Origin: Owenia fusiformis
Taxonomy: Eukaryota > Annelida > Polychaeta > Sabellida > Oweniidae
Length of the DNA: 64,000 nucleotides
Assembly: GCA_903813345.2 (NCBI GenBank)
Contig: CAIIXF020000006.1
Location: 432,001-496,000, forward strand
Direction: 5' to 3'
Of this stretch, positions 1 through 62,895 are shown one piece after another. Numbering within the stretch: the first letter of the stretch is position 1; each line of letters begins with the position of its first letter. Under the pieces are notes generated by a model. It made no database searches and was not told the origin of the DNA. It was given only the letters and a program-made list of their open reading frames with translations. Both the position numbers and the translations under genes were made by a program.

Positions 1-276
1 TATCTAATCATTGTGATCTGTCTAGCAGACAATTTTTCTTTGATTGTGTGTAACTTGACCATGACACTCCTAACTCAGATTCTACATTCATGACACACCA
101 GGTTTTAATTTTCAGCACCAATACAATATTTAAATTATGGTAAACTGAATGCTTTTTCGAATGGAATACAATATTATGATACACGCATATGGCTTGTATA
201 AATCTTATATTGCAAAATGAAATGTTCCACTTTATCAAACCTACTATTGAGAAAACATTATTCATTTTCTTCAATA

Positions 277-1302
277 AATATCTTGAGACACCTTAGATGT
301 ATGAGATCGTAATAAATCTGTGAAATGTTTACTTACTGTCAATTATTGCTACAATATCTTGAGACACTTTAGATGTATGAGATCGTAATAAATCTGTGAA
401 ATGTTTACTTACTGTCAATTATTGCTACAATATCTTGAGACACTTTAGATGTATGAGATCGTAATAAATCTGTGAAATGTTTACTTACTGTCAATTATTG
501 CTACAATATCTTGAGACACCTTAGAGGTATGAGATCGTAATAAATCTTTGAAATGTTTACTTACTGTCAATTATTGTTACAATATCTTGAGACACTTTAG
601 AGGTATGAGTTCGTAATAAATCTGTGAAATGTTTACTTACTGTCAATTATTGCTACAATATCTTAAGACACCTTAGAGGTATGAGATCGTAATAAATCTG
701 AATTGTTTACTTACTGTCAATTATTGCTACAATATCTTAAGACACCTTAGAGGTATGAGATCGTAATAAATCTGTGAAATGTTTACTTACTGTCAATTAT
801 TGCTACAATATCTTGAGACACCTTAGAGTTATGAGATCGTAATAAATCTGTGAAATGTTTACTTACTGTCAATTATTGCTACAATATCTTGAGACACTTT
901 AGAGGTATGCGATCGTAATAAATCTGTGAAATGTTTACTTTCTGCCAATTATTGCTACAATATCTTGAGACACCTTAGAGGTATGAGATCGTAATAAATC
1001 TGTGAAATGTTTACTTACTGTCAATTATTGCTACAATATCTTGAGACACTTTAGAGGTATGCGATCGTAATAAATCTGTGAAATGTTTACTTTCTGCCAA
1101 TTATTGCTACAATATCTTGAGACACCTTAGAGGTATGAGATCGTAATAAATCTGAAATGTTTACTTACTGTTAATTATTGTAACAATATCTTGAGACACC
1201 TTAGAGGTATGAGATCGTAATAAATCTGTGAAATGTTTACTTACTGTCAATTATTGCTACAATATCTTGAGACACTTTAGAGGTATGAGATCGTAATAAA
1301 TC
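277..1302 (-). repeat. 14-copy ~76-bp tandem array derived from ANKS1 exon 7 and its splice donor
   Basis: Unit starts, measured at the motif TATCTTGAGACA or its variants (plus strand), fall at 279, 355, 431, 507, 583, 659, 733, 809, 885, 961, 1037, 1113, 1187 and 1263. Period is 76 bp, except 74 bp for two units that lost two bases. The copy at 1263 is inside the real exon 7. On the minus strand each unit is 57 nt of exon, GTAAGT, then 13 nt ending CACAG or CAG. Copies differ by scattered substitutions (for example GATGTATGA in the first three and GAGGTATGA later). Units 885-960 and 1037-1112 share the changes GCGATCG and TTTCTGCC, which shows a later 152-bp double-unit duplication. Confidence 0.95.
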
Positions 1303-1346
1303 GGCAGCAGTCTTTCCAGAGGAATCCTCAAGTTCACTATCTATAC
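1245..1346 (-). CDS. ANKS1: ANKS1-like exon 7 (end of ankyrin block; source of the tandem array)
   Basis: A 102-nt exon, acceptor TTCTAG, donor GACA|GTAAGT, phase 1 at both ends. It encodes GIDSELEDSSGKTAADLLRS then HTSKVSQDIVAIID, which corresponds to the end of the ankyrin block in ANKS1 (a segment of the type LTALDxxRxxPSxxSQxIAxLI). Its 3' 57 nt and its splice donor are repeated 13 more times at lower coordinates. The next exon downstream lies outside the window. Confidence 0.88.
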
Positions 1347-2010: not shown

Positions 2011-2089
2011 CATTTTCCAAAAGTATTTTGACAACCTCTTGTTTACCACACAAGGCAGCTTCATGAAGAGCAGTTCCTAGTGTGTCAAT
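2011..2089 (-). CDS. ANKS1: ANKS1-like exon 6 (ankyrin repeat)
   Basis: A 79-nt exon encoding IDTLGTALHEAALCGKQEVV then KILLENG. GxALHEAALxGKxxVVxxLL is conserved in ANKS1 repeat 6. Acceptor TTTTCAG, donor AATG|GTAAGT; starts phase 0 and ends phase 1. Confidence 0.93.
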
Positions 2090-2709: not shown

Positions 2710-2931
2710 CTTTGTGTTCACATCAAATCCAGCCTTGATCAATGTCTCAACAACACCTTTATGACCATTCCGTGATGCCAAGTGCAGTGGGGAATGCTGG
2801 GAAAATGGTGCATGTAACAGTTCAGGATGTTTCAAAACAAGAAGTTGAACTGTCTCTAGGCGACCATACTGGGCAGCCAAGTCCAAAGCAGACTCGTTGA
2901 TCTTGTTGCGTAAAGTCGGATCTGCTCGATG
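2710..2931 (-). CDS. ANKS1: ANKS1-like exon 5 (two ankyrin repeats)
   Basis: A 222-nt exon, 74 codons, phase 0 at both ends (acceptor CTTCAG, donor AAAG|GTATGA). It encodes HRADPTLRNKINESALDLAA, then QYGRLETVQLLV and HSPLHLASRNGHKGVVETLI, and ends KAGFDVNTK. The pair TALDLAAxYGRLxxV and HTPLHLAxRNGHKxVV is a close family signature of ANKS1. Confidence 0.95.
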
Positions 2932-4304: not shown

Positions 4305-4379
4305 CTCTATCAAGACAGATGCGGCTTTGGTGTGACCATACTGGCAAGCTGCATGAAGGCTTGTTTCATTCTCATTGTT
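4305..4379 (-). CDS. ANKS1: ANKS1-like exon 4 (ankyrin repeat)
   Basis: A 75-nt exon of exactly 25 codons encoding NNENETSLHAACQYGHTKAA then SVLIE. The acceptor is TTTCAG and the donor GAG|GTAAGT; both ends are phase 0. The intron between this and exon 3 is 14.8 kb and holds a LINE and an immunoglobulin-domain gene. Confidence 0.92.
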
Positions 4380-12136: not shown

Positions 12137-15100
12137 TTACAAGGATTTAAGAAGGTAATCCCTTCTTTTGTGCATTTCATATATCGTGTCCAGCAATGGA
12201 AGCATTATTTCAGGATCATATTCGCTCCCTCCACCGAAAATGAAACATATGAATTCACAAAAGTTGTTGACTCCTAGTTTATATAATTCACTAAATAGAT
12301 TGTATCTTATATCTATATACGCTGGGCACAATAGTAAAAAATGCTGTACGTCTTCAGTGACATTTAAATTGCATAGTAAGCATACACGTTCAGACATTGG
12401 TTGTCCGTAATTACATATCCTGTATGTTCCTGATATCATTTTCATTATAACTTTACATTGTGGTAAGCGTCTTGGAAAACGCCTGGCAACTTCCCACCAT
12501 AAAAATGGTTTTAAAACAGTGAAACATCTCAATATTGGTCTCAGTGTTGGATATAAGGAGCTAAGAACGAAAAAGCGTCTCATCTCAAACGACTTGACAA
12601 CGTTCATGACTTTTCTCTTCCAGACACATTTGAGTGGTGTGTTAGCAGTAGTTATCATATTCAAAACGTCCCCATGAAGGTCGTATTTCATTGTTGTTTC
12701 CCACATTGAGACCAATGGAGATTTACTTGAGCGATAGGTTCCAATGTGGATTATACTCAACAGTCTATAAATGCATACAATTTTATAAATACATTGTACC
12801 GGTAACGATAAGACGAACCAGATGAACATAAGGCGATCTACATCGATTCGCGCTTGAACTGAAAGCCATCCGAGTGGTTTTATCGCCATCGGGTCAGGGG
12901 TATTTACCGGGAAGCTTTGTATTCTCTTGCCAATGGATCTATGTGCATCCTCCATAGACTCAATTTCGGTTATTGAATATTGCGTTACAGAGCTGCCATA
13001 CGTCATTGTTGGGAAGCAAAAACTCCAGTATAACTTGGAAGCTATCAGAGGATTTAAGCCTCCTACATTTGCTCCTAAACCAAGCAGAGAAAAGAATTTT
13101 CTTTTACTGCGTGAAATCAAATTTGATACATGCTCTGAGCTTTTGCCTAAAGGTATGCCAACATGTGTAGCAGCTTTTTCTACTTTTAGAATATTCTCTC
13201 CTAATTTGCATTCACAAAAAGCATTTTTGTTTAGACCAAATCTAAGCACTACACATTTTCCTGGATGGAATTCAAACCTCCACCTTTTACTATACATGTC
13301 AGCAATGCTCAACAGAGCATTTAGATTTTCTGGAGTATTTGCAATTAAGGCAATATCATCAGCGTATGCTGGACATGCTACAGACGTTTCACCAATTCTT
13401 ACTCCTTTTGCCGAATCTACCAGTTGTTGCAAAAGGTCTGCTATAAAGAACTGGTAGAGAAACATGGAACATATCCCGCCCTGGTGAACACCTCTATTAA
13501 CAGGAAAAGTATCCGATAAAATACCATCTACAAAAACCTTACATTTATACTTGTTATATGATTGATACAAGAGCCTCCAACATAAACCATTTATACCACA
13601 ATTATATAACTTATGGAACAGGCCTCGTATCCATGTAGTGTCAAAGGCCTTTTTAATGTCCATTAATGCCATAATTGTGCCATTTTCTTGGTGAGATATG
13701 GCTTCTTGCACTATTAGAGATGTTTGCAAGGATGAGCAACCTTTAATAGACGCACCTTGTAATTGCGGTATGCGACCTTGCAGTACACCAGTAATTTTCC
13801 AAAGAACAATATTATCAAAAATCTTACGAAAAATTGTCATGAGAGTTATCCCACGATGGTGATCCTTATTAAGAGAATCTTTGTTACCAGATTTGAGCAA
13901 TGGCAGTAAGATCCCTAAGCAGAAGTTCTCAGGTATATATACATTTGCGATCATTGCATTAAATAAAATGGTGAGCAAAGACACAATATTTTCACCAGCG
14001 TATTTTACATGTTCAGAATTGATACTGTCATGGCCAGCTGCTTTTTTCATATTTAGTTTCCCTATTGACTTCTTAACATCACATTCGGATATACCATTGT
14101 CAAAAATGCCATCAAAATTATTCATACAATTCAATTCCATCCTTGAAATATCATCATTTACATATTGTTCAAAGTCTGAATTAAAGATGTCTCTTTTGTC
14201 GTAAGAAGCTAATCGACTAAAATACAGTTTCCATTCTTGACATACTTCCACTGGATCCGTAATTACTTGACCATTATCATTTCTGATTGATTTACCCGAT
14301 TTTTTAACATATAATCTACTTTTGTTTACAAGGTGCCAGAACATATTCTGATCTAAGTCATCAGCATAGTACAAGTTGTCGAGCTGTGCCAGTTCATACT
14401 CATTTTTCATTAGATTATACAATTTTGAAAATGCACGTTTCGCATTTTTAAAAGCACATCTAAAAACATTTGAGCAATCTCTGGGCCTACCAGCCCGAAC
14501 CCATTCGCGCCAAGCAAGCTTCTTTTTACGCACAAGTTCAGTAAGCTCCACATTCCAGAAAGGTTTCTGGTGCTTGCAAAATTGCTTAATTGGCACGTAT
14601 AAGTTTGACTTCTCTAATAAGAGATTTTCTAACCTGGAAAAGTAGGCATCAATTACTGCCTTATCGATAACATTAAGCTTGGAAATATCGCTAATTAATC
14701 TCTTTACCTGAGTATCGACATCATTTGTGTAATCACCCTTTAATTGATCTGTTAATTTATGCCATGCAAAACTTGGCTTGATTGACGCACAAGGAGAACT
14801 TTTTTGCATTAAAATAGATGGCAGATCAATTTCAGATTCTATAGCAAGATGACCACATCCAATTGTAAAACTATCTGCCAGTACTTTACAGCTTAAACAT
14901 GCAGGTAGTAGTTCTTCGGACACCAGTATATGATCTATATATGATTTGTACCCAGTACCTGATTCATATGTATAGCAAGGGCCGCTTGTTCGACTTTGCA
15001 AATCAAGAGATGTTAACCCATTACGCAACATACAATTATACATCATTTTACCATTTACAGTGCATGTACCGTGCGCTCTTTTGGTTTGAAATAAGTTTCC

Positions 15101-15646
15101 AAAATTCGCATTTATATCACCAAGTAAAATTACATAACCCGTAGCTACACATTTATATATACAGTTTTCTAAATAAATAACAACATCCTCAAAGCTCTCA
15201 TTTTTACACGATGCCTGAGGCAGATATACCGAAAGGACATACAGAGGCGTATCACCTTCAATTTTTATGCATGCAATTCTATCCGTGCAGAATTCTCGCA
15301 CTGGCGATATGGCATTTTTAAACGTTTTACGCCAAAAAAGCGCTATTCCGCCATGTCCCCAGCTAATTCCACAATTCATAGGGTTAAGTAATGAGCTACT
15401 ATATGCTAAGCACTCAAAATCACGATCAATATCATTAAGCTTGTTTAGATTACATTCATATAAACGATGTTCTGACACTGCGACAATATCACTTCTTTTT
15501 AGCAATTCACGCAAATAAATCTCTGATGAGTGTATACCATTTGCATTCCATTGGGTAAAAATTACCATTATTAATATACAGTATAGAATGATCAGGTGTT
15601 TCATTGTGATTTTTTGATATTTAGCGTTTATTGACTTATTGATCAT
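12137..15646 (-). CDS. LINE ORF2: endonuclease and reverse transcriptase
   Basis: About 1169 residues from the ATG at 15646. An open frame extends 28 codons further upstream inside ORF1, but the ATG that overlaps the ORF1 stop (ATGATCAATAA) is the likelier start, by stop-restart coupling. The N-terminal 280 residues are an apurinic-like endonuclease: TQWNANGI, SEHRL, LLGDINANF, YIDHILVS and GHLAIESE fit its catalytic blocks. The reverse transcriptase follows with MDIKKAFDTTW (motif A), RGVHQGGICS (motif B) and AYADDIALIA (motif C, near residue 760). The C-terminus has CLLCN-x-HFLLLCPAY, a Cys-His finger typical of these enzymes. It nicks DNA and copies its own RNA at the break (target-primed reverse transcription). 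No stop or frameshift is seen. Confidence 0.96.
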   Translation of the reverse strand: MINKSINAKYQKITMKHLIILYCILIMVIFTQWNANGIHSSEIYLRELLKRSDIVAVSEHRLYECNLNKLNDIDRDFECLAYSSSLLNPMNCGISWGHGGIALFWRKTFKNAISPVREFCTDRIACIKIEGDTPLYVLSVYLPQASCKNESFEDVVIYLENCIYKCVATGYVILLGDINANFGNLFQTKRAHGTCTVNGKMMYNCMLRNGLTSLDLQSRTSGPCYTYESGTGYKSYIDHILVSEELLPACLSCKVLADSFTIGCGHLAIESEIDLPSILMQKSSPCASIKPSFAWHKLTDQLKGDYTNDVDTQVKRLISDISKLNVIDKAVIDAYFSRLENLLLEKSNLYVPIKQFCKHQKPFWNVELTELVRKKKLAWREWVRAGRPRDCSNVFRCAFKNAKRAFSKLYNLMKNEYELAQLDNLYYADDLDQNMFWHLVNKSRLYVKKSGKSIRNDNGQVITDPVEVCQEWKLYFSRLASYDKRDIFNSDFEQYVNDDISRMELNCMNNFDGIFDNGISECDVKKSIGKLNMKKAAGHDSINSEHVKYAGENIVSLLTILFNAMIANVYIPENFCLGILLPLLKSGNKDSLNKDHHRGITLMTIFRKIFDNIVLWKITGVLQGRIPQLQGASIKGCSSLQTSLIVQEAISHQENGTIMALMDIKKAFDTTWIRGLFHKLYNCGINGLCWRLLYQSYNKYKCKVFVDGILSDTFPVNRGVHQGGICSMFLYQFFIADLLQQLVDSAKGVRIGETSVACPAYADDIALIANTPENLNALLSIADMYSKRWRFEFHPGKCVVLRFGLNKNAFCECKLGENILKVEKAATHVGIPLGKSSEHVSNLISRSKRKFFSLLGLGANVGGLNPLIASKLYWSFCFPTMTYGSSVTQYSITEIESMEDAHRSIGKRIQSFPVNTPDPMAIKPLGWLSVQARIDVDRLMFIWFVLSLPVQCIYKIVCIYRLLSIIHIGTYRSSKSPLVSMWETTMKYDLHGDVLNMITTANTPLKCVWKRKVMNVVKSFEMRRFFVLSSLYPTLRPILRCFTVLKPFLWWEVARRFPRRLPQCKVIMKMISGTYRICNYGQPMSERVCLLCNLNVTEDVQHFLLLCPAYIDIRYNLFSELYKLGVNNFCEFICFIFGGGSEYDPEIMLPLLDTIYEMHKRRDYLLKSL

Positions 15647-17321
15647 AGGCATTAAAAGTTCCACCTCTAATCCTTCGATATTCATTCCAGTTTTGCCATT
15701 CCCTACAAACAATAGGATCTGGCCAATCAATAATCATAGTCTGTTGAAAGTTGGACTCCACTACAGCAATTTTACATCCCACATGGGTATAAGACATTCT
15801 ATTGTGGACCACATGACAGTACATTATCTTAACACCGTGTTCATAGCCAAATTTTATGACATCATCACAGATGTCATCATCAGTGTCGTGTTCATCTTGA
15901 AAAACATTTTCCAAATAGAGATATTTATAGCGTTCAAACTGTTTTCCTTTTATAGTTCTCTTGGAGTAGACATTATTGTCTACAGGTGCACCTCGTAGAG
16001 CTCTTGCGTTTTGTGATTGTGGGGCTGGTTGAGTAGGTGGTGAGACGTGAGCAGATTTTGCGGCAATTTTCTGTTTTTTATACGTTTGATTGCTTGCCCA
16101 TACCATCCATTCTTTCCCTGGTAATTGACTGGCATTGTCCGATACATTAGATGGCGAAGTTAACACTTCACTGAACGTTGAAGGGGTTTCTTTGATTGTC
16201 TTGGACTGGGAAGAGATCTTGTTGGTTCCTGGGACTTCGATGGGCGTTGAATCGGTAATAATATATGTATTATGTGGATCGGGCGCTATTGCTGGGGTCG
16301 GATGATCAATCTTAGAATAACCATGGTCTTTTGCTTTAACAGATGATGCGGGTTTATTAGGCGTGCTGGCACCCGTTACACATGTATTGATAACAGTTTC
16401 ATTAAGCGACAAAAACGAGTCGCTTGTTTCGGGATTAACAGTCCTGGACTTGGAGACTTTGGCATTATTGACTTCATTAACGCGTTGTTTGGCAAACTCG
16501 AGCATTTGTTGTTGTTCACTCACTATTTCCTCAAGAGTAGTCGCCTTACTAATTGGGATTGTTTGTGGCTTGGAATTGGCTTGGATCAGGGGTTTTGGCA
16601 GAGTACCAGTTACTGGCACCTCGGATTGTTTACATGTACAAGTACATGTTTTGACGAAATTGGTCACATCGACCTGAAGTTTAGAAAGTTTCGAAAATAG
16701 CGTTCCTACCTCATCTTTCAAGTCCTTTATCTCCTTTTTATGGCTATCTCTATCTGCTTCAAGTTCCACAACTCGCTGGGTTAGCATTGTTATGTTTATA
16801 TCCACTGTTGCATTACGCTCGTTGCGATACGCATTTTGACGCAATTCCTTATTGCCGATGACATCGGGTAGGAAACTGTTTGTACTGAGTATAGATCTGG
16901 GGAAGCTTTTGTTATCCGTTATGAACAGATATAGATCCGAAATATCATTCAAAAGCGTGACCTTTCTATTTTTTCCTTTTCGCAGCTTTGGTTGTAAGTT
17001 TATAGGAACCTGATCTTCCTCTCGATCAGCAAGTACGCCATAGAGATTATCACATAACTCAGATACTTTTACCTTCCCCTTTTGGAACAGATAATCCCTG
17101 AGAACATCGCACTCATCTTCCTCAAGCTCTCGATCTAACTCTTCTATCACGTCCGCTCTCGGGCCTTCAGTCAGCAGCTGAAGCGTTTGCTCAATATTGG
17201 CTAAATCCTCCCCGCTAAGCGGAGCTGTTGATTTCACGTCCGACGCCATTGAAACCGGAAGCTTTTGGTAAACAGGTAGAATATGGCATTGTTTGAGTTT
17301 ATTATGTAAAAATAAAAACAT
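15636..17321 (-). CDS. LINE ORF1: nucleic-acid-binding / coiled-coil protein
   Basis: Up to 561 residues. The frame opens at 17321, but the ATG at about 17249 (MASDVKSTAPLSGEDLANIE) is a plausible start because the preceding residues look like translated leader. The N-terminus is acidic and helical. Residues about 175-235 read as a coiled coil (LTQRVVELEADRDSHKKEIK), ending in a CTCTCK cysteine cluster. A low-complexity S/T/P-rich linker follows. The last ~100 residues form a folded-looking domain (KYLYLENVFQDEHDTDDDIC, YCHVVHNRMSYTHVGCKIAV) of unknown fold, commonly placed where ORF1 binds RNA. ORF1 proteins package LINE RNA. Overlaps ORF2 by 11 nt. Confidence 0.85.
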   Translation of the reverse strand: MFLFLHNKLKQCHILPVYQKLPVSMASDVKSTAPLSGEDLANIEQTLQLLTEGPRADVIEELDRELEEDECDVLRDYLFQKGKVKVSELCDNLYGVLADREEDQVPINLQPKLRKGKNRKVTLLNDISDLYLFITDNKSFPRSILSTNSFLPDVIGNKELRQNAYRNERNATVDINITMLTQRVVELEADRDSHKKEIKDLKDEVGTLFSKLSKLQVDVTNFVKTCTCTCKQSEVPVTGTLPKPLIQANSKPQTIPISKATTLEEIVSEQQQMLEFAKQRVNEVNNAKVSKSRTVNPETSDSFLSLNETVINTCVTGASTPNKPASSVKAKDHGYSKIDHPTPAIAPDPHNTYIITDSTPIEVPGTNKISSQSKTIKETPSTFSEVLTSPSNVSDNASQLPGKEWMVWASNQTYKKQKIAAKSAHVSPPTQPAPQSQNARALRGAPVDNNVYSKRTIKGKQFERYKYLYLENVFQDEHDTDDDICDDVIKFGYEHGVKIMYCHVVHNRMSYTHVGCKIAVVESNFQQTMIIDWPDPIVCREWQNWNEYRRIRGGTFNAYDQ

Positions 17322-17516
17322 ATTTCTAAAACTAGTATAATCTCCATGGATACCATCTCATATTATATTGGAAAACTACATGAAATTAGTAAATTTATCA
17401 ATAGCTCTAGCAATATGAAGCCAATGTTATGCTTGTTGGAATGGTAAGGTTATATGATAGTAGTATGTCGAACTCAAAATCAAACTACAGAGCCCAAAAA
17501 TAGTTAATGCATTGCA

Positions 17517-17635: not shown

Positions 17636-18505
17636 TTACTGGTTCACTGGTTTATGTTCAACAGCACTGTATCGGATGTTCCCTTTGGAGCTGTCCTGCT
17701 TTTTACATCTTTTAATAATGCTAAATAGCACTGCTACACCTATGGCACACATCAACAGCATTAGAGGTGCAAGAATGGCGATGGCAATGACATCTCTTAG
17801 GTTTAATCCTGTTGCAATATGGCTGGATTCAGATTTACCTTCATTTAGAGAATTCCAGGTGAGTATACACTGATCAACATATTCAGGTTCCTTGCTATTC
17901 ACTTGACAAGTAAATTTTGTTCTATTTTTCACAGAAGAGATATCAAATGTAAATTTTGCACTTGCATAATGATCATCCTTGTTGGCGTATGATACATTTT
18001 CTCGTTCTTCTTCACCATCGCGCAACCATTTTAATGTTGGTTTAGCATAGCCAGCATATCTCATATTACACATAACTGTGACACTCTCTCCTTCAATAAC
18101 ACTGTCAAAGACACACGAGGGGGTTCCATATACAGTGACATAGGCTGAATATTGCGACTGACCATAAAATGTTTTGCACATGTACTTCCCAGCATCCTCT
18201 ATAGATATATTCTTTATTTTTAGGTTATATTTTGCAGCTTTAGTATTAACAGCAAATTTTGGACTCAATATTGTATCTGGTTCATACGAATTGAAAATTT
18301 GTAAGCCGTCCTCTCGTTTGGTGAAATCATACCATGAAACAATCTCCGATTGCGTTATTTCTTCATCTGCAAGCTGACATGGCATTTCAGCGTCTTCTCC
18401 GCTTTTTGCAATGATATCAGATGGCTTAACTGCAACATTGTCACAGCATATAAAGTAACCCATATATATCACGAGTCCTATCAAATAACTGTATGCAAGT
18501 GACAT
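17636..18505 (-). CDS. Intronless two-Ig-domain transmembrane receptor with ITIM-like tail
   Basis: 289 residues. Residues 1-21 form a hydrophobic signal peptide. Residues ~27-127 are a V-type immunoglobulin domain (Cys43, Trp58, DAGKYMC with Cys110). Residues ~129-215 are a second Ig domain (Cys146, KWLRDG, Cys190), with extra cysteines at 131 and 203. N-glycosylation sequons occur at NIS, NVS and NRT. A single membrane segment spans ~228-255, followed by a basic stop-transfer KRCKK. The short tail contains IRYSAV (277-282), which fits the consensus I/V/L-x-Y-x-x-L/V of inhibitory tyrosine motifs. The whole protein is in one exon, unusual for the Ig superfamily, and lies in ANKS1 intron 3 just upstream of the LINE. 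No named family is recognised; a cell-surface recognition role is inferred from architecture. Confidence 0.85.
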   Translation of the reverse strand: MSLAYSYLIGLVIYMGYFICCDNVAVKPSDIIAKSGEDAEMPCQLADEEITQSEIVSWYDFTKREDGLQIFNSYEPDTILSPKFAVNTKAAKYNLKIKNISIEDAGKYMCKTFYGQSQYSAYVTVYGTPSCVFDSVIEGESVTVMCNMRYAGYAKPTLKWLRDGEEERENVSYANKDDHYASAKFTFDISSVKNRTKFTCQVNSKEPEYVDQCILTWNSLNEGKSESSHIATGLNLRDVIAIAILAPLMLLMCAIGVAVLFSIIKRCKKQDSSKGNIRYSAVEHKPVNQ

Positions 18506-19160
18506 GACCAGTAAGTATTATCCTTTTTATTTTACATTTGCTTACAGGAAGCACTCAAAATTTAAAATTGTTGAAATTATTACTTATGAGAAGTACATGA
18601 TTTCATTACATGATGTTTTCAAAATTAAACTACCAAAGTTTATCTGGGTTTGATTATGTTTTGAAATGAAACTTGACAGTTTGTTTAAGTTAAATATTAA
18701 TTTTATCAAACTACAACTTGATAAACAGAAAGGCTAAAAAGGATATTTTGACTTTACAACATACATGTACTTTGCATCAGAGAAACATGAACCATTTTAG
18801 TGAGAAAGTTGATATATAAAATATTTGAGTAGAATGGCCATACATACTACTTTTCTTGACAGAAGACTAAATATTCTTCACTCTTGCAAAAGATAGCATT
18901 CGCGAATTAAACTGCCAGCTGTCGGCTGATCAGATGGTTTAATTGCAATTTTATGGCCAACTCACTGAAATATGATTAGTACCTGCAATTATTCCATTCA
19001 CATTTAAATAAATTGGTAATACAAAAGTAGGTTAAACTGTCAGCCGTCAGTTGACTTTGAGAATGCTACCTTAGCCTCAAAGCCATTATTATGCAGCTTG
19101 TTTTTCAAAAGACTAACATACATGTAACTTTAATAAATTAAAATAAAATATCACCCCTAC

Positions 19161-19317
19161 CTGTTCATTGACCCTGGCTTTTGATGGACCATGCGACAGC
19201 AAGAGTTGGCATATCTCAGCATTGCCGTTCCATGCTCCAAGGTGTAGAGGAGAACATCCTTTGTTGTCCAGTAAGGTAGCAGAAGCTTCATGCTTCAGAA
19301 GCAGTTCTACAGCATCC
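19161..19317 (-). CDS. ANKS1: ANKS1-like exon 3 (ankyrin repeats)
   Basis: A 157-nt exon, acceptor TTACAG, donor CAG|GTAGGG. It encodes the end of repeat 1 (DAVELLLKHEASATLLDNKG) and repeat 2 (CSPLHLGAWNGNAEICQLLL), ending SHGPSKARVNEQ, a strongly conserved segment in ANKS1 proteins. Ends in phase 0. Confidence 0.93.
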
Positions 19318-19781: not shown

Positions 19782-19868
19782 CTATGTCCATTCAAGGCAG
19801 CATGGTGAAGGGGAGACTCTCCGCTGGCATCTTGACAGTTTACCGGAGTAGCTTTAACACCTCGTAAA
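19782..19868 (-). CDS. ANKS1: ANKS1-like exon 2 (ankyrin repeat)
   Basis: An 87-nt exon between acceptor TTCCAG and donor CATAG|GTAGG. It encodes SLRGVKATPVNCQDASGESP followed by LHHAALNGHR, the start of the first ankyrin repeat with its TPLHxAAxxGH-type core. Both junctions are phase 2, matching exons 1 and 3. Confidence 0.9.
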
Positions 19869-21981
19869 CTGGAACAAAATGTACATATGCCTTTATAAAA
19901 TTCCTGAATGAATGTTGGACCATCTGATGAGAGAAAAGGAAATGAAACTCAGAATTTAATTTTGACGTATAAGATATTGTATTTTTTTGCTACCATTTTT
20001 TCAATGGCATGTATTTGATTGGTAAATGTGTATATTCTTTCTTTTAAACTTTATGCCAGTCAACTTAAACCATCCTACTTTATTGTTATTAGTAAAGAAA
20101 ATTAGTGGTCCAAGGCTTATTTCCATCGGAAATGAAAAATAAGTGAAGCCCTTGATGGAGAATTGTCTTCATTTCTAAACTGCATTTCTATGTGAACTGC
20201 AGTGCCATCTAATTAACAGAAATAGATTTATATTCAACATTCAAGTTCTGGCTTTATTCAGTTGAATGTTAATAAGCTCCATCTATTAGCCTCTGAGGTT
20301 CAGGATAAAAAACTTATTACTGAATTTAACATATTAATTTATTTCCATGTACTTTAGTCATATCAGGTCCTGATGGATAAATGGACTAGGAGGTAGACTA
20401 TCATTAATCATTGTTGCTTAAATATTTGAAATTAATTTGATGAAATATATCATTATCTGCTCTAAATCAAATATCAAAAATGACTGAGATTTTCATCAAT
20501 ATTTTGACAGGGAAATAACTGGCATAATGCATTATTACCAATATCAGGCATAATATATCAGTAATGGGCTGATAATACAGATGTTCACAATGTTGCTATT
20601 GATCACCTGGGACCTTTTATGATATAATATAATATGAATACATGCTAATGTGGTTCCATATTGGATACTATGCTAACTACCCTTTTCTACAGTAAGATTT
20701 AGTTTCTTTAGAGAGTTTATACTGTTACTACTATATCTGGGCCCCAGGGTTCATTCTAACATGAGTGTCTAGAAAAAATTGAAAAAATTGCTAATTTAGT
20801 GCTAAATTGATATGGCACTTAATTTGTACAAAACTTATTTGGAGATAAACCCATTTGGCAGTGTAATAATATTATCACATTCTAGCCTCTAAGAACATAA
20901 CAGGTTGCTTATCTGAAGAAATATCAATAATTATAAAGAACACTTTTCTTCAAATTAATGGTATTCATTTGGTTATTAGTGGTCTTATCTTGAAAATTAT
21001 GCAGTATTGGTTATTATGTCATATTTACAGTCTCTGGGAAGAACCATACTCGTTTCCCAGTTTAATTTTCAAATACTTTCAATTTTTCAAATTTGTTTTC
21101 TAACATGGATACCAGCAAAGTGTGACATCATAAGTATGCTAGCTTCTTTGGCTCACCAAAAGAGGTCAGGATTTATAGGAAAGCTCTACTTGATTGTAAT
21201 TAATAATACAAAGTCAACAAGATTAGTCTGGGACAATTCCATCAAAGGTAAAAAACCATTGTATAATATTCAATACACTTAAGAAATGAAAACATTAAAA
21301 CACCAGCTTTAACTGAAAGATAATCTCAAACATTGATCTTGATTTATAATTCATGAAAGCCAATGTGTCAGAATCAATGCTATAAAAACACCTAAAGTAC
21401 CCTAACAAAGAGATGTACTCCACGATTATTAGTCATCTTCCCTAATGAGCTAAAGAATATAAAGAATATAGAGAAATATGGAAAATGAAAATATAAAAAG
21501 TCAGGTATTAAAGGTAGAGTAAATCAAAGATATGTGACTTTTTGGTATTTTTCAGGCAACCTAACTGGACGTCTGAAAAAATATATTTTGGAATAAGGAC
21601 GAGGTAAAATAAAAATGCTTTGGGCTTCTGTTTGTTTAGGATCAAGTATCCCCCAATCAAAACTCTTTGTTAAAACCTTGCAAATTATTTTTGTGAATCA
21701 AATCTAAACATATTTGTATTATATTTCTGATGTATTTTCAGTCTAGTAAAAAAGTAAAATGTTTGATATACTTTAGATGAATTATTAAGATACATGTATG
21801 GGATCATTAAAACTGAGTTTATTATTCATTTTTGTTAATGAATACAAAAATCTCTCTGTGCAAGATTAATATTATTCCTATGGCTACTAACAATCAATTA
21901 AAAATCACGGTCAATTTTCTGAATAAAATGCTTTCTCATCAGCCTATCTGAGAAATAGTATGAATGTTTCATTTTGAGTAC

Positions 21982-32790: not shown

Positions 32791-33495
32791 TTTCTCACTT
32801 TTCAATCGTCGTTTTCACCACGCTATGAAGGCAATACAATGAAAAAATAGCTGTTGTATTAAGATTAATAAGAGATCAATCGTTTCTTATAATTTTTTCT
32901 GTTCTCTCGTACGGGAATATGAACGAATATATCATTTGAAAAATAGGTGTGAAAATCCCCATGTTAAACCTATGAGGGAAAACAAGGAAGTATAAATTTG
33001 TTCCTCCGCGAACTGCATCATGGGAAATATTTTGACCTTATAAGGAAAGATTTTCGCGTCTCCCCTTTTGAAGAGGGAACAACGATTTCGAGAATTGTAG
33101 CCAATGGCTTTTCCAAATCGATATTGATTTATTGCCTTTCATTAGCTATAATTTATACATTCTTGATCATTTTCGTGAAAGAATTTAATATATTCATCCA
33201 ATCTAAAATAATTACAACCGAATTAGGGATCCTATCTTTTGAGTAACCTACCTATCACTTATTTAACTAAATTTACACATACTAGACGTGACAACAACCA
33301 TACATAGACTGTGGTATACAAAATCAAGCGGTGCAGATATCATGTGTGCATGGTATGGACTTAAACGGTCATTTTTAAATTTGAATTTGTGATATTTCAC
33401 AAGCTAAGACATATTGGGTACTCAATTATATTCATTAATGTGTACAGGATCCCTAATAAATTGGGTCAATAGGTGTGTACTTAAAAAAAATAGAC

Positions 33496-33845
33496 AGAAG
33501 AGCGGGGGTAATATTGTCAAATACACCCTGCAGGGCTTAAGGCACAAACGATTCCTGTGCCCCAAACGACTGAAGGAAGGTTCGAAAGATTTTGTGCCTA
33601 GCCCTAAGGGGTGTATTTGACAATATTACACCTGCTCTGGGGTCTATATTATGATTCGAACATGAAAACTCTCCAAATTGTTTCAAATTAGGAAATATAG
33701 ACTGAAGAGCAGGGCTACTATTTTCGAATACACACCGCAGGGCTTTGCACAAACGTTTTCTGTACCCCAAAGGGAGTGAGGTGTTCAAAAGTTTTTGTTC
33801 CTAGCCCTAAGGTGTGAATTCGAAAAAAGTAGCCCTGCTCTGAGG
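33496..33845. repeat. Two tandem copies of a ~145-bp palindrome
   Basis: The first palindrome, 33496-33643, has arms containing GGTAATATTGTCAAATACAC and its inverse. The second, 33703-33845, has arms AGAGCAGGGCTACT and AGTAGCCCTGCTCT. Each is followed by GATTCGAACATGAAAACTCT, at 33653 and 33856, giving a 203-bp period. The arms of each copy agree with each other better than with the other copy. Confidence 0.8.
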
Positions 33846-33979
33846 TCTTTATAACGATTCGAACATGAAAACTCTCCAGAATATTGCAAAATCGTCAATT
33901 TCGATGTTCATTTCCACATTTTTCATTTCTACTTCCAGTTAAGCTTTTGCACTGAAGGAAACACTATCACTTAGAACAG

Positions 33980-35824: not shown

Positions 35825-35937
35825 CTTGCAAAAGAAGCAAGCAATCCTTCTTTCTTTGGTTTTGAGGTCAATATCTTTTCTATCGAACTCGTGTCTCCTT
35901 TCCTTGCGGCCTCTAGTAATTCATGTTCCCTTCCCAT
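35825..35937 (-). CDS. ANKS1: ANKS1-like exon 1 (start codon)
   Basis: First coding exon, 113 nt, 37 codons plus two bases. It opens with ATG and reads MGREHELLEAARKGDTSS, then a lysine-rich stretch ending LLASFA. The donor is AAG|GTGAGT. The start is chosen because the MG-E-ELLEAAR opening is the conserved beginning of ANKS1 proteins. It splices in phase to the exon at 19868, leaving a 16-kb first intron that contains the ZNHIT2 gene. Confidence 0.9.
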
Positions 35938-43035: not shown

Positions 43036-44376
43036 GTAAGAACAAATAAATTTTTTGCCAGTTCATCAAGTAAAAGACAATATTTTGACAAGTGTAACTA
43101 TTGTTCAAATATGTATATTACTTTATATATCTTAGGAAAGGACGGGTGTCATTAAGTGCCCTTTTTAGCCCCCAAAGATATCTGATAATAATGCATATCA
43201 TATTGAAGAAAAATCATTTGTGCTTTATAAAAATACAATTTCAGCGAATTTTGACCTTTGATGTTCACACAACAGTCATTTAAAGATCATATACCATTTT
43301 TGGTGTTTTTACAAAAAATTCTTTATTTATTGTTGTCTAAGTAAATAGTATATAAATATTAACCAATATAAATATATTAAAATGTAATATATGAAATACT
43401 GAAGAAAAGATTCGATTAAAATTATTTTCATGGAAAAGCACATAGGGCAATATTGACAAAAAGCAAATGCTATTTTGGTAGGTTCTGGGCTAGCAATGGG
43501 TACATTTCTATTGTGACTGCAATGGATATCTATTATGTCACCACCAAAAGTGGTGACATATTGTTCTGGTCTCCGTTTTTTTGCGACGGCGGTTGGTGGT
43601 TGGAGGTTGGAGGTTGGCGTCCGGCGTCTGTAACAATTTCTTACAACTTCCTATAACTTAACAAATACTGTTTAGACTGACTTCAATTTTTTTCTAAATC
43701 ATCTACATGTTCTCAGAAGTTCAAATCTGACTTAAGATTTGACATTTGACCTTCAATGACCTTCTCAAGGTCAAAAAGGTCTTTTTTCAACTTGCTAATT
43801 CACATTGACTAAATTTCTTTTCAAAATCATCTACATGTTCTCAGAAATTCAAATCTGACTTTAGATTTGACATTTGACCTTCAAATCTGACTTTAGATTT
43901 GACATTTGACCTTCAATGACCTTCTCAAGGTCAAAAAAGGTCAAAAAGGTCTGTTTTCAACTTGCTTCAAATTGACTAAATTTTTTTTTCAAAATCATCT
44001 ACGTGTTCTCAGAAATTCAAATCTGACTTAAGATTTTACTTAAGATTTGACATTTGACCTTCAATGACCTTCTAAAAGTCAAAAAAGGTCAAAAAGGTCT
44101 TTTTTCAACTTGCTTCAAATTGACTAAATTTTTTTTTCAAAATCATCTACATGTTCTCAGAAATTCAAATCTGACTTTAGATTTGACATTTGACCTTCAA
44201 TGACCTTCTCAATGTCAAAAAAGGTCAAAAGGGTATTTTTTCATCTTGCTTCAAATTGACTAAATTTTTTTTCAAAATCATCTACATGTTCTCAGAAATT
44301 CAAATATGACTTTAGAATTGACATTTGACCTTCAATGACCTTCTCAAGGTCAAAAAAGGTCAAAAAGGTCTTTTTA

Positions 44377-46013
44377 TGTCCCCACCACATAGTGTGGGGC
44401 CATATTGTCGGCCTAGGCGCGTCCGTCTGTCTGTCCGTCCATCCGTCCGTCCGTCTGTCCGTACGTCCGGGAGTTTTCTCCAAAACCGCTACAGATATCA
44501 CCTTCAAATTTTCAGGGATAACTTATGAGTGCATACAGATGTGGATGAAAAAGTTTCAAGTCGATACCTACTTCCTGTCGGCCATTTTGAAGTCAAATGC
44601 TAAAATCCTTGTCTGCAAACTTTAAGAAAAACGGCATCACAGTTACTTTTAAAACTTTAACATCTTGTTCAGCTCACTTCATTCTAGATCTGATTAGGTT
44701 TTGGACCTGTTAGCTCAGTCATGTCAGCCATTTTGAATGTCTAAGAAAAGTTAGCGCACGATAATACTTTGTATCATATTGAATGGTGTTTTTGAGTTTT
44801 CATACTTTAACTATTTAGTAGCTTTATAAATAATTTCAGATGTACTTTGTTGTAAAAGCCTATGTTATTGTTAACAGTAGTTATATGTGATAATTTTGTA
44901 AGAAGAAATCAGCAAAAACACATAATCACTTTTTTATTGTCGGCCATTTTGGATTTTTCCGTCCTAAAATCTTGTCTGTGAAGTCTTGTCTACGTGTTTT
45001 CAGGTGAACCGTTTGGTGGATCAATTTCAAATTTTCAGGGATGATTCATAGTATAAAAATCTAAATCTGATTTGTTTTTTGGCATTCTGGGTAAATGTCA
45101 AGGCAGCCATTTTGGATTTTCCGTCCTAAAATCTTGTCTGTAAAGTCTTGTCTACGCGTTTTCAGGTGAACCATTTGGTAGATCAATCTCAAATTTTCAG
45201 AGATGATTCTTAGTATGAAAATGTAGAACTGATTAGTTTTTTGGCATTCTGGGCAAATGTCAAGGCAGCCATTTTGGATTTTCTGTCCTAAAATCTTGTC
45301 TGTAAAGTCTTGTCTATGCATTTCCAGGTGAACCGTTCTGTAGATCAATTTCAAATTTTTAGGGATGATTCTTAGTATGAAAATCTAGATCTGATTAGTT
45401 TTTTGGCATTCTGGATAAATGTCAAGGCAGCCATTTTGGATTTTCCGTCTTAAAATCTTGCCTGTAAAGTCTTGTCTACGCATTTTTAGGTGAACTGTTT
45501 GGTAGATCAATTTCAAATTTTCAGGGATGATTCTTAGTGTGAAAATCTACATCTGATTAGTTTTTTGGCATTCTGTGTAAATGTCATGGCAGCCATTTTG
45601 GATTTTCTGTCCTAAAATCTTGTCTGTAAAGTCTTGTCTACGCGTTTTCAGGTGAACCATTTGGTAGATCAATGTCATATTTTCAGGGATGATTCTTAGT
45701 ATGAAAATCTAGGAACAGATTAGTTTTTTGACATTCTGGGTAAATGTCAAGGCAGCCATTTTGAATTTTCCATCCTAAAATCTTGTCTGTAAAGTCTTGT
45801 TTACATGTTTTCTAGTTTACTGTGTGACGGATCGGTTAAAAATCTTCAGGAGTGGTTCTTAGTTTGAAAATCTAGAACAGACTAAATTTTTGGCATTCTG
45901 GGTAAATTTTAAGGTGGCCATTTTGGATTTTCCGTCCTCAAATTGTGTTGGTAAAGTCTTGTCTACTCATTTTGAGGATAACCATTTCATGGGATCACCC
46001 ATTGGTGGGGACA
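44377..46013 (+). mobile_element. Element family E2, nested in E1
   Basis: Termini TGTCCCCACCA (44377-44387) and TGGTGGGGACA (46003-46013) are perfect inverses. The 5' end folds as CCCCAC-CACATA-GTGTGGGG. A GTCC/GTCT microsatellite follows at 44410-44470. From 44942 come seven 162-bp modules. Both E1 flanks continue on either side, so E2 inserted after E1. No coding function. Confidence 0.85.
44890..45980. repeat. 162-bp tandem modules within E2, seven copies
   Basis: The motif GCCATTTTGGATTTTC recurs near 44942, 45105, 45267, 45429, 45591, 45754 and 45916 (spacing 162-163). Each module also has TAAAATCTTGTCTGTAAAGT and AATTTTCAGGGATGATTC. A minus frame at 45061-45354 merely reads two modules. 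Confidence 0.9.
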
Positions 46014-48256: not shown

Positions 48257-49385
48257 ATCCCATCGAACGAAGTTCGGAGGGATATAGGGAACGCCTCCGT
48301 CCGTCCGTACGTCTGTACGTCCGTACGTCCGTCCGTCCGGGCAATAACTCAAATACCGTTGGCCCGATTTTATTCATATTTTGTACACATATACCCTATG
48401 GGAGTAGAAGTTCTGCTCGAAAGCCGATTTTCAAAATGGCCGCTCATTTCAAAATGGCGGCCATTTTAGTGCCGAATTTACAGTAATTTAGGTGCAATAT
48501 GTAAAACTGTAATAGCAATATGTTTTAGATGTAAAAAAATTATATAGGACATTAATAAAGCTAGAAATGTAGATATTAAAGAAGCACATGGCAGCCATCT
48601 TGAAAAATGGCGGTCTTTACTCGTTATTTTACGATTTTTGCTGTAACTCCAAAAGTAGTGGAGCGATTTTGTTCATATTTGGTATGTGAATACTTTAAAC
48701 ATTGCACACTGTCTAAAGACTATTTAAGTAGAAGGCGGCCATTTTGAAAAATGGCCGCTATTTTGAAAAATGGCCACCATTTTAACGTATTTTACTATAA
48801 CTCGAAAAGTAGTGGAGCGATTTTGTTCATATTTGGTATGTGAATACTATAAGCATGACACACTGTACTTTGACACTTTTGGTAGAAGGCGGCCATTTTG
48901 AAAAAAAATTTGAAAAATGGCCGCCATTTTAACGTATTTTAATATAACTCGAAAAGTAGTGAAGCGATTTTGTTCATATTTAGTATGTGAATACTGTAAG
49001 CATGGCACACTGTCTAATGACACTTTTGGTAGAAGGCGGTCATTTTTCAAAATGGCCGCCATTTTAACGTATTTTACTATAACTCGAAAAGTAGTGGAGC
49101 GATTTTGTTTATATTTGGTATGTGAATACTATAAGCACGGCACACTGTCTAATGGAACTTTTGGTAGAAGGTGGCCATTTTGAAAAATGGCCGCCATTTT
49201 AACGTATTTTACTATAACTTGAAAAGTAGTGGAGCGATTTTGTTCATATTTGGTATATGAATACTATAAGCATGGCACATGGTCTAATGACACTTTTGGA
49301 AGAAGGCGGCCATTTTGAAAAATGGCTGCCATTTTTGCTATTTCCTTTGTTTGTAAAAATGCCATCCATGGCTGTTCGATGGGAT
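48257..49385 (+). mobile_element. Element family E3
   Basis: Starts ATCCCATCGAAC GAA GTTCGGAGGGAT (hairpin) and ends GTTCGATGGGAT, so the termini are inverted for 12 bp. A GTCC/GTAC microsatellite follows at 48298-48340, then AATAACTCAAATACCGTTGG. About five ~140-bp modules come next, each with ACTCGAAAAGTAGTGGAGCG and GGCCATTTTGAAAAATGGCC (itself a palindrome). Frames through the region are repeat translations. Confidence 0.85.
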
Positions 49386-58556: not shown

Positions 58557-61500
58557 GTGTGGGAGCAAAAGTCCAAATAAGAGGTTCCGTGTCCTTTTTA
58601 GAGGCGAGCTAAGCGACATATGTTTTCATGAACTATACGTGATACTGATCAAGAAAAATGATGTTGGCAATTCTGAATCCGCGACGGCGTTGCTATGGTA
58701 ACCAAGTAAATATGCCACGCCCACTTTTAGGGGCTCTTTTCAGTGTATGGCCCCTATCTCTGTCATTATTGCTCAGATTTAGATGAAATTCACACCAAAT
58801 GGAAGGTAATGGATAACGCAATCAGGAAATATTAAGTTGGCAATTCTGAATCCGATATGGCGTTGCTATGGTAACAAAGTAAATATCCCACACCCACTTT
58901 TAGGGGCTCTTTTCAGTGTTTGGTCCCTATCTTCGTCAATATTGCTCAGATTTAGGTGAAATTTGTACCAAATGAAAGATAATGGAAAGAACAATCAAAC
59001 AGTTTATAAAATATGCAAATAAGGTGATTTGCATATTAATTATGACGTCATAACCATTTGTTCTTGCACATTTAATTTTAATCATGATGTATAAATCTGG
59101 GAAATTATTGTCATTAAAATGGTCAGTAATGCTTTATTTTCATTAAGTTTATTAGATTATGTCATTCATACATGTATGGTCATAAAAAATTGAAAATGTT
59201 GTGAAAATATCCAATTCAAGTTGTTGCTATGGTAACGGTATGTTGCAAAACTATCTGCTGTAAAAATAATTCTTTGGGAAATGTTACATTTTGACCAGTT
59301 GACTGACATGTATTCCTTCGAAAATTTGATGGCAGAGAATAACCTAATAACGATAGAAACTTATCTAATTTAAATTGTGTTATATTATGATGTCACAATG
59401 GCAATTAATCAGGGGGGTTCTATTTTTATTGGTTAATGGGAGGGGGTGGGGGTGCCTCCATCACACCCCCTGGCTATGCCTATGTTTGCTATGGCATTCA
59501 GGTGAATATGCCGTCCCCAATTTCAGGTCTTTTCCAAAGTTTTGATTCTATCAGTTGTCATGATGATAGCTCTGGTGTATATGAAATTTTCATCAAATGG
59601 AAACTAAAGAATCAGACAATGCATGGGGAATTGACAGACTTGAATGTAGATTGACAGACTGGCATACCTGTTATGGTATGACTATCATAGCTGTTTTCGT
59701 GATTATTTTCTTGAAATAAGGTAAAATTGCTTAAGATGATTCCAAATTGGTACCTTTGGTCCATTGACATTCACCATAAAAGTAGGTCAAAGCTGAAAAC
59801 TATGATTGATTTCCATTCTATTTCTTTACATGTATAAAGTATGATCAAGAAATATTATGGGCAATTCTGAATCTGCGATGCCGTTGCTATGGTAACTAAG
59901 TAAATATGCCATGCCCATTTTTAGGGGCTCTTTTCAGAGTTTGGCCCCCATCTCCACCATTATTGCTCAGTTTTTGATGAAATTCAGACCAAATTGAAGG
60001 TAATAGATAATGCAATCAGGAGGTATTAAGTTGACAATTCTGAATCAACAATGGCGTTGCTATGGTAACAAAGTGAATATGCCCCACCCACTTTTAGGGG
60101 CTCTTTTCAGTTTTTTGCTCTTATCTTCTTCATTATTGCTCAGATTTAGATGAAATTTGCACCAAATTAAAGGTAATAGATAGAGTAATCAGACAGTTAG
60201 TAAACTTTGCAAATAGTATGATTTGCATATTGATTATGATGTCATAACTGTTTGTTCTTGCATATTTTATCTTAATCATGATGTTCTAATCTGTGAAATT
60301 ATTGTCTTTAAAATAGTCAGTAATGCTTCTAACTCATTAATTAATTTCTTTCTTTTAGTTGAGTTTATAATTTTATTTCATTCATACTTGCATGGTCATA
60401 AAAACTGAATAAATCTAAAAATATAATGAAAATCTCCAATTTATGCTGTTGCTATGGTTACAGCACGTAGCAAAACTATCTGATGTAAAAAGAATTCTTT
60501 AGGAAATTTTACATTTTGATGAGTTGACTGCCACATGTATTCTTTTTAAAATATGATGACAGAAAATAATCTTGTAACTATAAAAATTATTTACTTTGGA
60601 TTGTGTTATAATATGATGCCATAATGGCAATTATTAATCAGGGGTGCAGCCAGCATTCAGTTAGGAGAGGGGGGGATTGCAATTGAAGCATAAGCAACCC
60701 AAAAATGTTTTTAAGATTTGTTTTGAATTTTACAAAAATTGATGCAACTTCCTTCAAAACCGATCTAGAATCTTCAAGTCAAAATGATTTTAAAGCTCTT
60801 CTTCTATTTAATGGTTATATTTTTTGGTTCACAGGGGCGCACCCATCGCACCCCCTGGCAATGCCTGTTAATCCAATATGATGTTGCTATGGTAACTAGG
60901 TGAATATGCCATCCCCGCTGTTCAGGGCTTTTCCAAAGTTTTGCTTCTATCTTTGTCATAATTACAGCTTGAGCGTATATGAAATATTCACCAAACTGAA
61001 GCTAAAGATTCAGACAATACATGGATTATGTCAATTGACTGACTGGCATACCCATTGTCGCATTAATAGCTTTAAATTAATAGGTTTTGAAATCCGATAA
61101 ATATGTTCAATGTCAATTTACATAAAAAATAATATCATTTTATGGTATAGGTCAATTCTTTAGCCTATTTCATCTTTTAGGTCATGTAGACATAACTGTA
61201 CCAATTTTGAACCGAATGGTCGGATGTCGGATTTCAAAACCAACAGCATATCTGAAATCAGGGGCTTCCATACTTCATACTTGTAAAGAAATGGAATAAT
61301 TCATAGTTTTCAGCTTTGGCCTCATTTTATGGTGAATGTCAAAGGACAATGTTCTAATTTGGAACCATTTTGAGCAATTTTACCTTATTTCAAGAGATAA
61401 TCACAAAAAGCAGCTATGATACCATAACAGGTACTGTACTCCTGGTATTTTTCGCCTGCTATTTAGTTTCGTGCTTGGTAAAATCGCAAAAATTAATCTT

Positions 61501-62895
61501 AGCGAAATTGTCAATTAATTCCCAGGGATTTGTGAAATTTATTATTACATTTCTTGTTTTGTAAAATGTTTTTCAAGTGTTTTTAGGCGATTAATGGAAT
61601 AGTTAGTACCAATGTCTATTACAGTGGAATCATTTTGAGCAATTTTACTTTATTTCAAGAAAATAATCACAAAAAGGAGCTATGATACCATAACAGGTAC
61701 TTAGTATGTCAGTCAGCCAATCTACATTATTCATGTATTGTCTGATTCACCTAGCATATTCACCTAATGGTTACCATAGCAACATCATATTGGATTAACA
61801 TAGGGAGTGCTTAGAGGAATGGGGGTGCGCTGGGTTCACTCACCCCCTAATAACCAATAAAAATAGAACCATTAGATAAAAGAAGACTTTCAACTTGAAG
61901 CTTTTTGCTAAATTTTGAAGGAAGTTGCATCAATCTTTGTAATATTCAAAACCTATCTTATAAATACTTTTGTCTTGCCTGTGCCACGATCGCAGGCCCC
62001 CTTCTGAACGAAAGCTGGCTGCGCCCCTTATTAAAAATTGCCATTATGACACCATAATATAACACAATCCAAATTTGATAACTATGGTTATTAGATTATT
62101 TTCTGTCACCAAATTTTAAAAAGAATACATGTCAGTCAACTGGTCAAAATGTAACATTTCCTAAAGAATTCTAGTTTACAGCAGATAGTTTTGTTACATG
62201 CTGTCACCAAAGCAACAGTGTGAATTGAACACTTTCATTATATTTATTCAATTTTTATGATCATACATGTATGAATGAAATAAACTAATAAAGTCAACTA
62301 AAAGAAATAAACTAAACTAATTAAAAGCATTATACTGACCATTTTAAAGACAATGATTTCCCAGATTTATACATTATGATTAAAATAAAATATGCAAGAA
62401 CAAACAGTTATGACGTCATAGTTGAAAGGCAAATCACCATATTTGCATATTTTAAAAATTGTTTGATTCCTCTTTCTATTACCTTTAATTTGGTGCAAAT
62501 TTCATCTAAATCTGAGCAATAATGACAAAGTAAGGGGCCAAACACTGAAAATAGCTCCGAAAAGTGGGTGTGGCATATATACTTTGTTACCATAGCAACG
62601 CCATATCGGATTCAGAATTGCCAACTCAATATTTCTTGATTGCATTATCCATTACCTTCCATTTGGTGTGAATTTCATCTAAATCTGAGCAATAATGGCA
62701 GAGATAGGGGCCATACACTGAAAAGAGACCCTAAAAGTGGGCGTGGCATATTTACTTGGTTACCATAGCAACCCCGTCGCGGATTCAGAATTGCCAACAT
62801 CATTTTTCTTGGTAAGTATCACGTATAGTTCAGGAAAACATATGTCGCTTAGCTGGCCTCTAAAAAGGAAACGGAATGACCTTTGCTCCCATACT
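58557..62895. mobile_element. 4.3-kb composite foldback element with X-box arrays
   Basis: The left arm (58557-~59850) matches in inverse the right arm (~61260-62895), from GGGAGCAAAAGTC and TTTTTAGAGGC at the outer ends to AAATTGCTT/GAGCAATTT inside. A third, direct copy of the arm lies between (~59850-61260). Each arm begins with two ~170-bp modules (CAATTCTGAATCCG, GTTGCTATGGTAAC, CCACTTTTAGGGGCTCTTTT). Later comes ATTTGCATATTAATTATGAC with a CRE. In the right arm a 63-bp segment ending ATACCATAACAGGTAC is repeated at 61371 and 61636 around an inserted sequence. No ORF of note. Confidence 0.8.

Follow-up and report, generated by a model that had tools for sequence, protein, structure and literature searches.

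A tandem array of exon/intron boundary copies in the ANKS1 gene of the annelid Owenia fusiformis and its likeness to the mirages of amphioxus genes

The window analysed here is a stretch of 64,000 nucleotides from the genome of Owenia fusiformis (GCA_903813345.2, contig CAIIXF020000006.1, positions 432,001 to 496,000); positions are those of the window except where the prefixes C1, C2, C6 and C7 mark genome coordinates. Its minus strand carries exons of a gene that, judged by sequence similarity, is ANKS1, the joins between exons being predicted. These exons are listed in order of transcription.

35850..35937, minus strand: probable ANKS1 exon 1, the start exon (MGREHELLEAARKG...), ends approximate
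19782..19923, minus strand: predicted ANKS1 exon 2 (ankyrin), high-coordinate end uncertain
19161..19317, minus strand: predicted ANKS1 exon 3 (ankyrin)
4305..4379, minus strand: predicted ANKS1 exon 4 (ankyrin)
2710..2931, minus strand: predicted ANKS1 exon 5 (ankyrin)
2011..2089, minus strand: predicted ANKS1 exon 6 (ankyrin)
1245..1346, minus strand: authentic ANKS1 exon 7, 102 nt, phase 1 at both ends, with acceptor TTTCATTCTAG, donor GACA/GTAAGT and a frame continuing from exon 6 (ENG/ID)

The joined ankyrin exons gave a strong ankyrin match in Pfam, and two SAM domains (two of the 30 SAM matches in the genome) are found further downstream on that strand (C6:378719-378856 and C6:380034-380123). 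When the SAM pair and the piece between them were searched against the PDB, which returned 26 matched sequences at E values up to 0.001, the best match was an ANKS1A-Eph receptor fusion (5zry, 8.7e-27), followed by ANKS1B (2kiv, 1.1e-26) and then caskin-1 (8.4e-15). The initial annotation had placed the array at exon 7 of ANKS1, an identification supported by six ankyrin exons, one exon 1 and two SAM domains matching ANKS1A and ANKS1B; the array exon fits the seventh position in the predicted gene, provided that no small exon has been missed. A candidate exon 8 of matching phase starts at C6:406537, after TTTTCCAG, so that the intron holding the array is predicted to span about 26.7 kb. None of the nine Pfam matches to the PTB domain (PF00640) lies near the ANKS1 gene; a stretch in frame at C6:376660-376475, YLGSTLVKELKG, we take to be PTB-like.

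Several other features of the region are recorded here in their own right. A long frame lying between exon 8 and the SAM exons of ANKS1 (C6:404935-403289, minus strand) contains six variants of SQTIQYEKV, that is, repeated tyrosine motifs. Two overlapping long open frames of 1198 and 573 aa in an ANKS1 intron (12137-17357, minus strand) are presumably of the non-LTR retrotransposon type, and in the same intron an uninterrupted frame of 293 aa (17636-18517, minus strand) reads like an immunoglobulin-type membrane protein. A fragment that we take to be of a Tc1/mariner-like transposase (C6:431999-431694, minus strand) lies in the array-holding intron, roughly 0.3 kb past the array's low-coordinate end. 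Further tandem repeats with units of 135-203 bp were found by TRF at 33486-33878, 43890-44375, 44943-45977, 48909-49335, 58648-58986, 59862-60182 and 62478-62811.

The array itself occupies positions 277-1302 and was reported by TRF with a period of 76, 13.6 copies and 94% matches. Cut on the minus strand, it consists of the following parts.

1245-1301, minus strand: exonic part of unit 1, the last 57 nt of exon 7
1226..1244, minus strand: intronic part of unit 1, the authentic GTAAGT donor and 13 intron bases
318..1225, minus strand: units 2-13, decoy copies, each of 57 exon-like and 17 or 19 intron-like nt; donor lost from units 3 and 5 and intact in units 2, 4 and 6-13; a TAA stop in each of units 8 and 9
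277..317, minus strand: unit 14, truncated, 41 nt, with no donor
273..279, minus strand: ATTTATT at the intron end of the array, a candidate slippage seed, matching GATTTATT (1295-1302) in the exon

All units share one orientation, and the authentic exon is unit 1 in transcription order. Eleven of the 13 complete units are of 76 nt and two (units 2 and 8) of 74 nt, the latter having 11 rather than 13 intron bases after GTAAGT; the junctions read ACA/GTAAGT and CAG/ATTTATT. A search of the whole genome with the exon end, by a DNA search that skips very common words, gave 14 matches, every one of them inside the array. Much of the original description of this locus is thereby borne out: the unit is indeed the end of the exon followed by GTAAGT and 13 intron bases, the genuine exon, recognizable by its own acceptor and continuing frame, is the unit at the high-coordinate end, and the anatomy of array and unit supports the view that the array was seeded by a coding exon together with its donor. 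The count of fourteen units of 74-76 bp holds for 13 of them, the last being of 41 nt. The claim of 13 decoy donors has to be reduced to ten, because the donor reads GAAAGT in units 3 and 5 and is absent from the partial unit 14; of the 13 copies that follow the real exon, ten thus keep a GT donor, or 10/12 if complete copies alone are counted. As each copy is preceded by AG, giving the arrangement AG/57 nt/GT with 19 codons and an identical phase at both ends, each copy represents a potential mini-exon of 19 codons and constant phase.

The 12 complete copies were compared with unit 1 as the reference, the intron changes of unit 8 being counted by eye. Ten distinct changes were found in the 57 exon sites: four are synonymous, five alter an amino acid and one, present in both unit 8 and unit 9, creates a stop. 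The six donor sites have a single change, which units 3 and 5 share. Among the remaining 13 intron sites there are two, one in unit 8 and one in unit 10, and units 2 and 8 have the 2-nt deletion as well. The exon part, the donor and the intron part thus change at similar rates per site, as would be expected if the array drifts with neither its codons nor its donors under selection, although the numbers of changes are small and this is weak evidence. Synonymous changes made up 4/10 of those in the exon part, against 24% expected (P = 0.21), and ten of the 12 complete copies are free of stops. With stops in two copies and no donor in two, nothing points to selection for the decoys. Three pairs of units are identical (3 and 5, 4 and 6, 12 and 13), which suggests recent turnover. 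The acceptors of the decoys are poor in pyrimidines, with 6-8 in 16 positions vs 14/16 for exon 7; the corresponding counts upstream of exons 6, 5 and 4 are 11, 14 and 11 of 16.

Arrays of this kind have been described before. In amphioxus globin genes, minisatellite-like duplications of exon/intron boundaries have been named mirages, a term taken from earlier work on Adh3; according to the available text of that report, their units measure 10-160 bp, copy numbers differ between haplotypes, Adh3 data and RT-PCR suggest that regular splicing is not interfered with, and mirages may be a general feature of cephalochordates and may give rise to new introns (PMC3087553). Similar repeats are reported in amphioxus PGBD5, in a source whose available part also cites the troponin C case (PMC3902484). 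The ANKS1 array has much in common with the mirages of Adh3, the globins BflGb6 and BflGb9 and troponin C, and with the similar PGBD5 repeats: its unit, of 76 bp and thus within the amphioxus range, spans an exon/intron boundary, the authentic boundary (predicted here from frame, acceptor and gene identity) is itself a member at one end of the array, and splice signals (AG and GT) are present in many but not all units, a GT donor being found in 10/12 complete downstream copies. It differs in its lophotrochozoan host, in its gene and in its 13 downstream copies. The Hox genes of this genome agree with a lophotrochozoan host rather than an amphioxus: a Lox5-type query matched a cluster on C1 at about 18.0-18.5 Mb, in which the homeodomain of the best gene is followed by NNIEKLTGP and those of two others by KEKQQIKDLNE and KENQAIKEINE. 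KLTGP is a mark of Lox5, and the other two resemble Lox2/Lox4, which are likewise lophotrochozoan genes. Among the matches listed by title and abstract in the open-access literature there was no report of mirages in lophotrochozoans, and for minisatellites spanning exon/intron boundaries the matches listed described mirages for amphioxus alone.

Other known systems are more distant. Intron gain by tandem duplication, for which ATP2A1, fission yeast and potato cases are given in the available part of the source (PMC4974935), resembles the ANKS1 array in that exon sequence with splice signals in it is duplicated in tandem, but here the copies appear to have been absorbed into an existing intron and no new intron is evident; with 17-19 nt between them, neighbouring copies leave no room for an intron, longer skips being compatible with the sequence. 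In polyubiquitin UBC, tandem dual-specific splice sites are described in the accessible text (PMC10809524), and there, as here, each tandem repeat has splice signals; however, AGGT sites delimit the coding monomers of UBC and are used both ways, whereas no AGGT occurs at the unit junctions of the ANKS1 array. Intronic minisatellites of C. elegans have been linked to multiple splicing choices in a report whose available part makes no mention of minisatellites spanning exon/intron boundaries (PMC4039745).

The genome of O. fusiformis holds more arrays with donors. A loose pattern, three RGTAAGT at a spacing of 48-78 bp, was searched over the whole genome and gave 3016 + 2727 matches vs 2150 + 1908 for a reversed control. 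Four arrays were taken from among the matches listed: in L013, L014 and L015 an acceptor, an open exon and a donor are seen, with copies of exon plus donor running into the intron, and L016 has no clear exon-first arrangement. For a strict pattern, three MAGGTAAGT spaced 29-59 bp apart, there were 176 + 66 matches vs 95 + 25 for its control, and at least 14 distinct arrays were counted by hand among the 100 matches listed, which end on C7. By eye, 12 of these 14 have the exon first, the remainder being L030, which runs past the piece examined, and L033, which is ambiguous. One of the 12, L029, is borderline, with units of 17 bp, an exon part of just 13 nt at 85% identity and no acceptor within the piece. 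Altogether, in 15 of the 18 arrays judged by eye (the borderline one included) the real exon is the first unit and the copies run into the intron. This order follows from how such duplication works and is thus not independent evidence, and as these arrays were located by their intact donors they cannot show how often donors decay.

Seven of the 15 exon-first arrays have named support for the exon. Pfam gave Muted/BLOC1S5 (L013), NIF phosphatase (L027), UDP-glucose dehydrogenase (L028) and immunoglobulin (L035), together with FANCI (L032) and kringle (L037) at scores below the curated cut-off; the exon of L036 matches neuronal calcium sensor 1 in the PDB (2e-10). The other eight rest on an open frame, which follows an AG in seven. 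Among the nine array exons searched, Pfam returned no family for L031, L036 and L014; the L031 exon has a weak PDB match to ABCC5 (0.01), and no PDB match was found for that of L039. Over 16 arrays (ANKS1 and these 15) the period ranges from 17 to 76 bp, the exon part from 13 to 58 nt and the intron part from 2 to 29 nt. Reading on past the first donor, with frames assigned by hand, meets a stop before the second donor in 10/16 arrays and slightly later (21-71 nt) in 3/16; in L014, L032 and L034 the frame runs on for hundreds of bases before a stop or stays open to the end of the piece.

Three of these loci have features of their own. The UDP-glucose dehydrogenase exon of L028 (C2:33703600-33704700) has arrays on both sides, a 130-bp repeat (2.1 copies in the piece) over the acceptor and a 45-bp repeat (12.7 copies) over the donor. 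At L039 (C7:9737900-9738900, minus strand), the exon of which we assume to be DIP2-like, a 38-bp array (5.1 copies) covers the donor, and a short 35-bp repeat (1.9 copies) lies on the acceptor side. In L014 (C1:441600-444800), where the exon is presumably tetraspanin-like, the frame stays open through about 17 copies of a 54-bp donor array, so that retention would add repeats to the protein.

Our working hypothesis is that the ANKS1 array is very probably a minisatellite of the mirage type, in which the first donor is used and the copies are removed with the intron; it is most likely tolerated rather than used. Replication slippage probably seeded it: a direct repeat of 7-8 bp, GATTTATT in the exon and ATTTATT in the intron, may have allowed a 76-bp segment to be duplicated, after which slippage or unequal exchange would have multiplied and homogenised the units. 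The array stops at its far end with the truncated unit, and the intron sequence that immediately follows opens with ATTTATT. Supposing that this unit has lost about 38 bases, the ancestor would have had direct repeats of 7-8 bp 76 bp apart, the classical seed for slippage; a deletion of about 38 nt in that unit is what the model would need. In seven other arrays, the bases shared at the far end numbered 0-3 in all seven by script. By eye, L014 shares ten (the array end TACATAATTA is common with the start of the repeated segment) and L031 nine (TTCACCTCA, likewise, with a last unit that is slightly shorter), L015, L028, L036 and L039 share 0-2, and the piece of L034 ends inside the array; with 0-2 bases in four arrays, this comparison does not support seeding by direct repeats as a general rule. 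The spliceosome would use the first donor, which is the earliest to appear in the transcript and has a strong acceptor, 102 nt upstream, as its partner across the exon, the copies being discarded with the rest of the intron.

An alternative is that the decoy donors are regulatory, either binding U1 or competing with the authentic donor, so that the choice of donor would truncate ANKS1 after the ankyrin repeats and copy number would set protein output. Such decoys would have a clear effect, as the frame read past the authentic donor gives SK and then a stop, within 8 nt, and any decoy donor would therefore truncate the protein with a stop two codons after exon 7; GTAAGT is, moreover, kept in ten of them. 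Yet, per site, changes in the donor are about as frequent as in the other parts of the unit, two donors are dead, arrays of the same kind lie at unrelated genes, and RT-PCR in amphioxus is reported, in the available text, as undisturbed (PMC3087553). A mild effect would be compatible with all of these points, but we regard a regulatory role as improbable. We similarly consider it unlikely that the number of decoy donors is a heritable and fast-changing dial on ANKS1 output, with like arrays elsewhere making donor copy number a genome-wide source of expression variation; if it were, use of a decoy would lead to an ankyrin-only truncated product or to decay of the message. The initial annotation, correct on the anatomy, over-read function when it proposed that the array could titrate U1, slow splicing or allow alternative 3' exon ends, since two of the 12 complete copies lack a donor, two have stops and like arrays lie at unrelated genes. 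Lost donors, stops and the same arrangement at unrelated genes fit passive turnover of a minisatellite; nothing in the sequence requires U1 titration, a regulated truncation or additional exons, possible though they are.

It is also conceivable, if distinctly unlikely, that these arrays are made by a mechanism aimed at exon ends or donors and not by generic slippage. The strict motif gave 242 matches vs 120 for the reversed control, and at least one exon (that of L028 and, more weakly, that of L039) has arrays on both sides. Counted by hand as distinct arrays over the same stretch of genome, however, the donor motif gave at least 14 and the control at least 12 (at least 16 in total among the matches listed for the control), a crude comparison, because real donors in themselves make the donor motif more frequent, because the counts are of the matches listed, and as one control array (C7:22040165) itself contains AAG/GTAAAT. 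Such similar numbers suggest a genome rich in arrays of any sort, in which a preference for donors is unproven.

That some copies serve as alternative cassette exons of 57 nt, each adding a 19-residue repeat (NLLRSHTSKVSQDIVAIID) after the ankyrin domain, appears very unlikely. The AG before and GT after the 57 nt, phase 1 at both ends and the ten stop-free copies would suit this reading, which is weakened by the two copies with stops, the two with dead donors, the pyrimidine-poor decoy acceptors and the lack of a significant synonymous bias; with neighbours 17-19 nt apart, adjacent copies could, furthermore, hardly both be used. The impression from two arrays that a constant 19-nt piece of intron was a design feature is ruled out by the range of 2-29 nt over 16 arrays, in which the spacing of the AG is not constant. 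An assembly artefact is scarcely credible, given that the units differ from each other, the contig is of 40.8 Mb and similar arrays with other units are found at other loci.

The ANKS1 array thus belongs to a kind already described, and what makes it notable is the lophotrochozoan lineage and the number of genes affected. Mirages have so far been discussed, in the available text of the reports, as a phenomenon of amphioxus and as raw material for new introns; that about a dozen unrelated genes of a lophotrochozoan carry them suggests an origin wherever minisatellites are common. Such arrays are a natural experiment in which several to dozens of near-identical donors stand beside the real one, and they test directly whether the choice of donor depends on position and exon definition rather than on the sequence of the donor.
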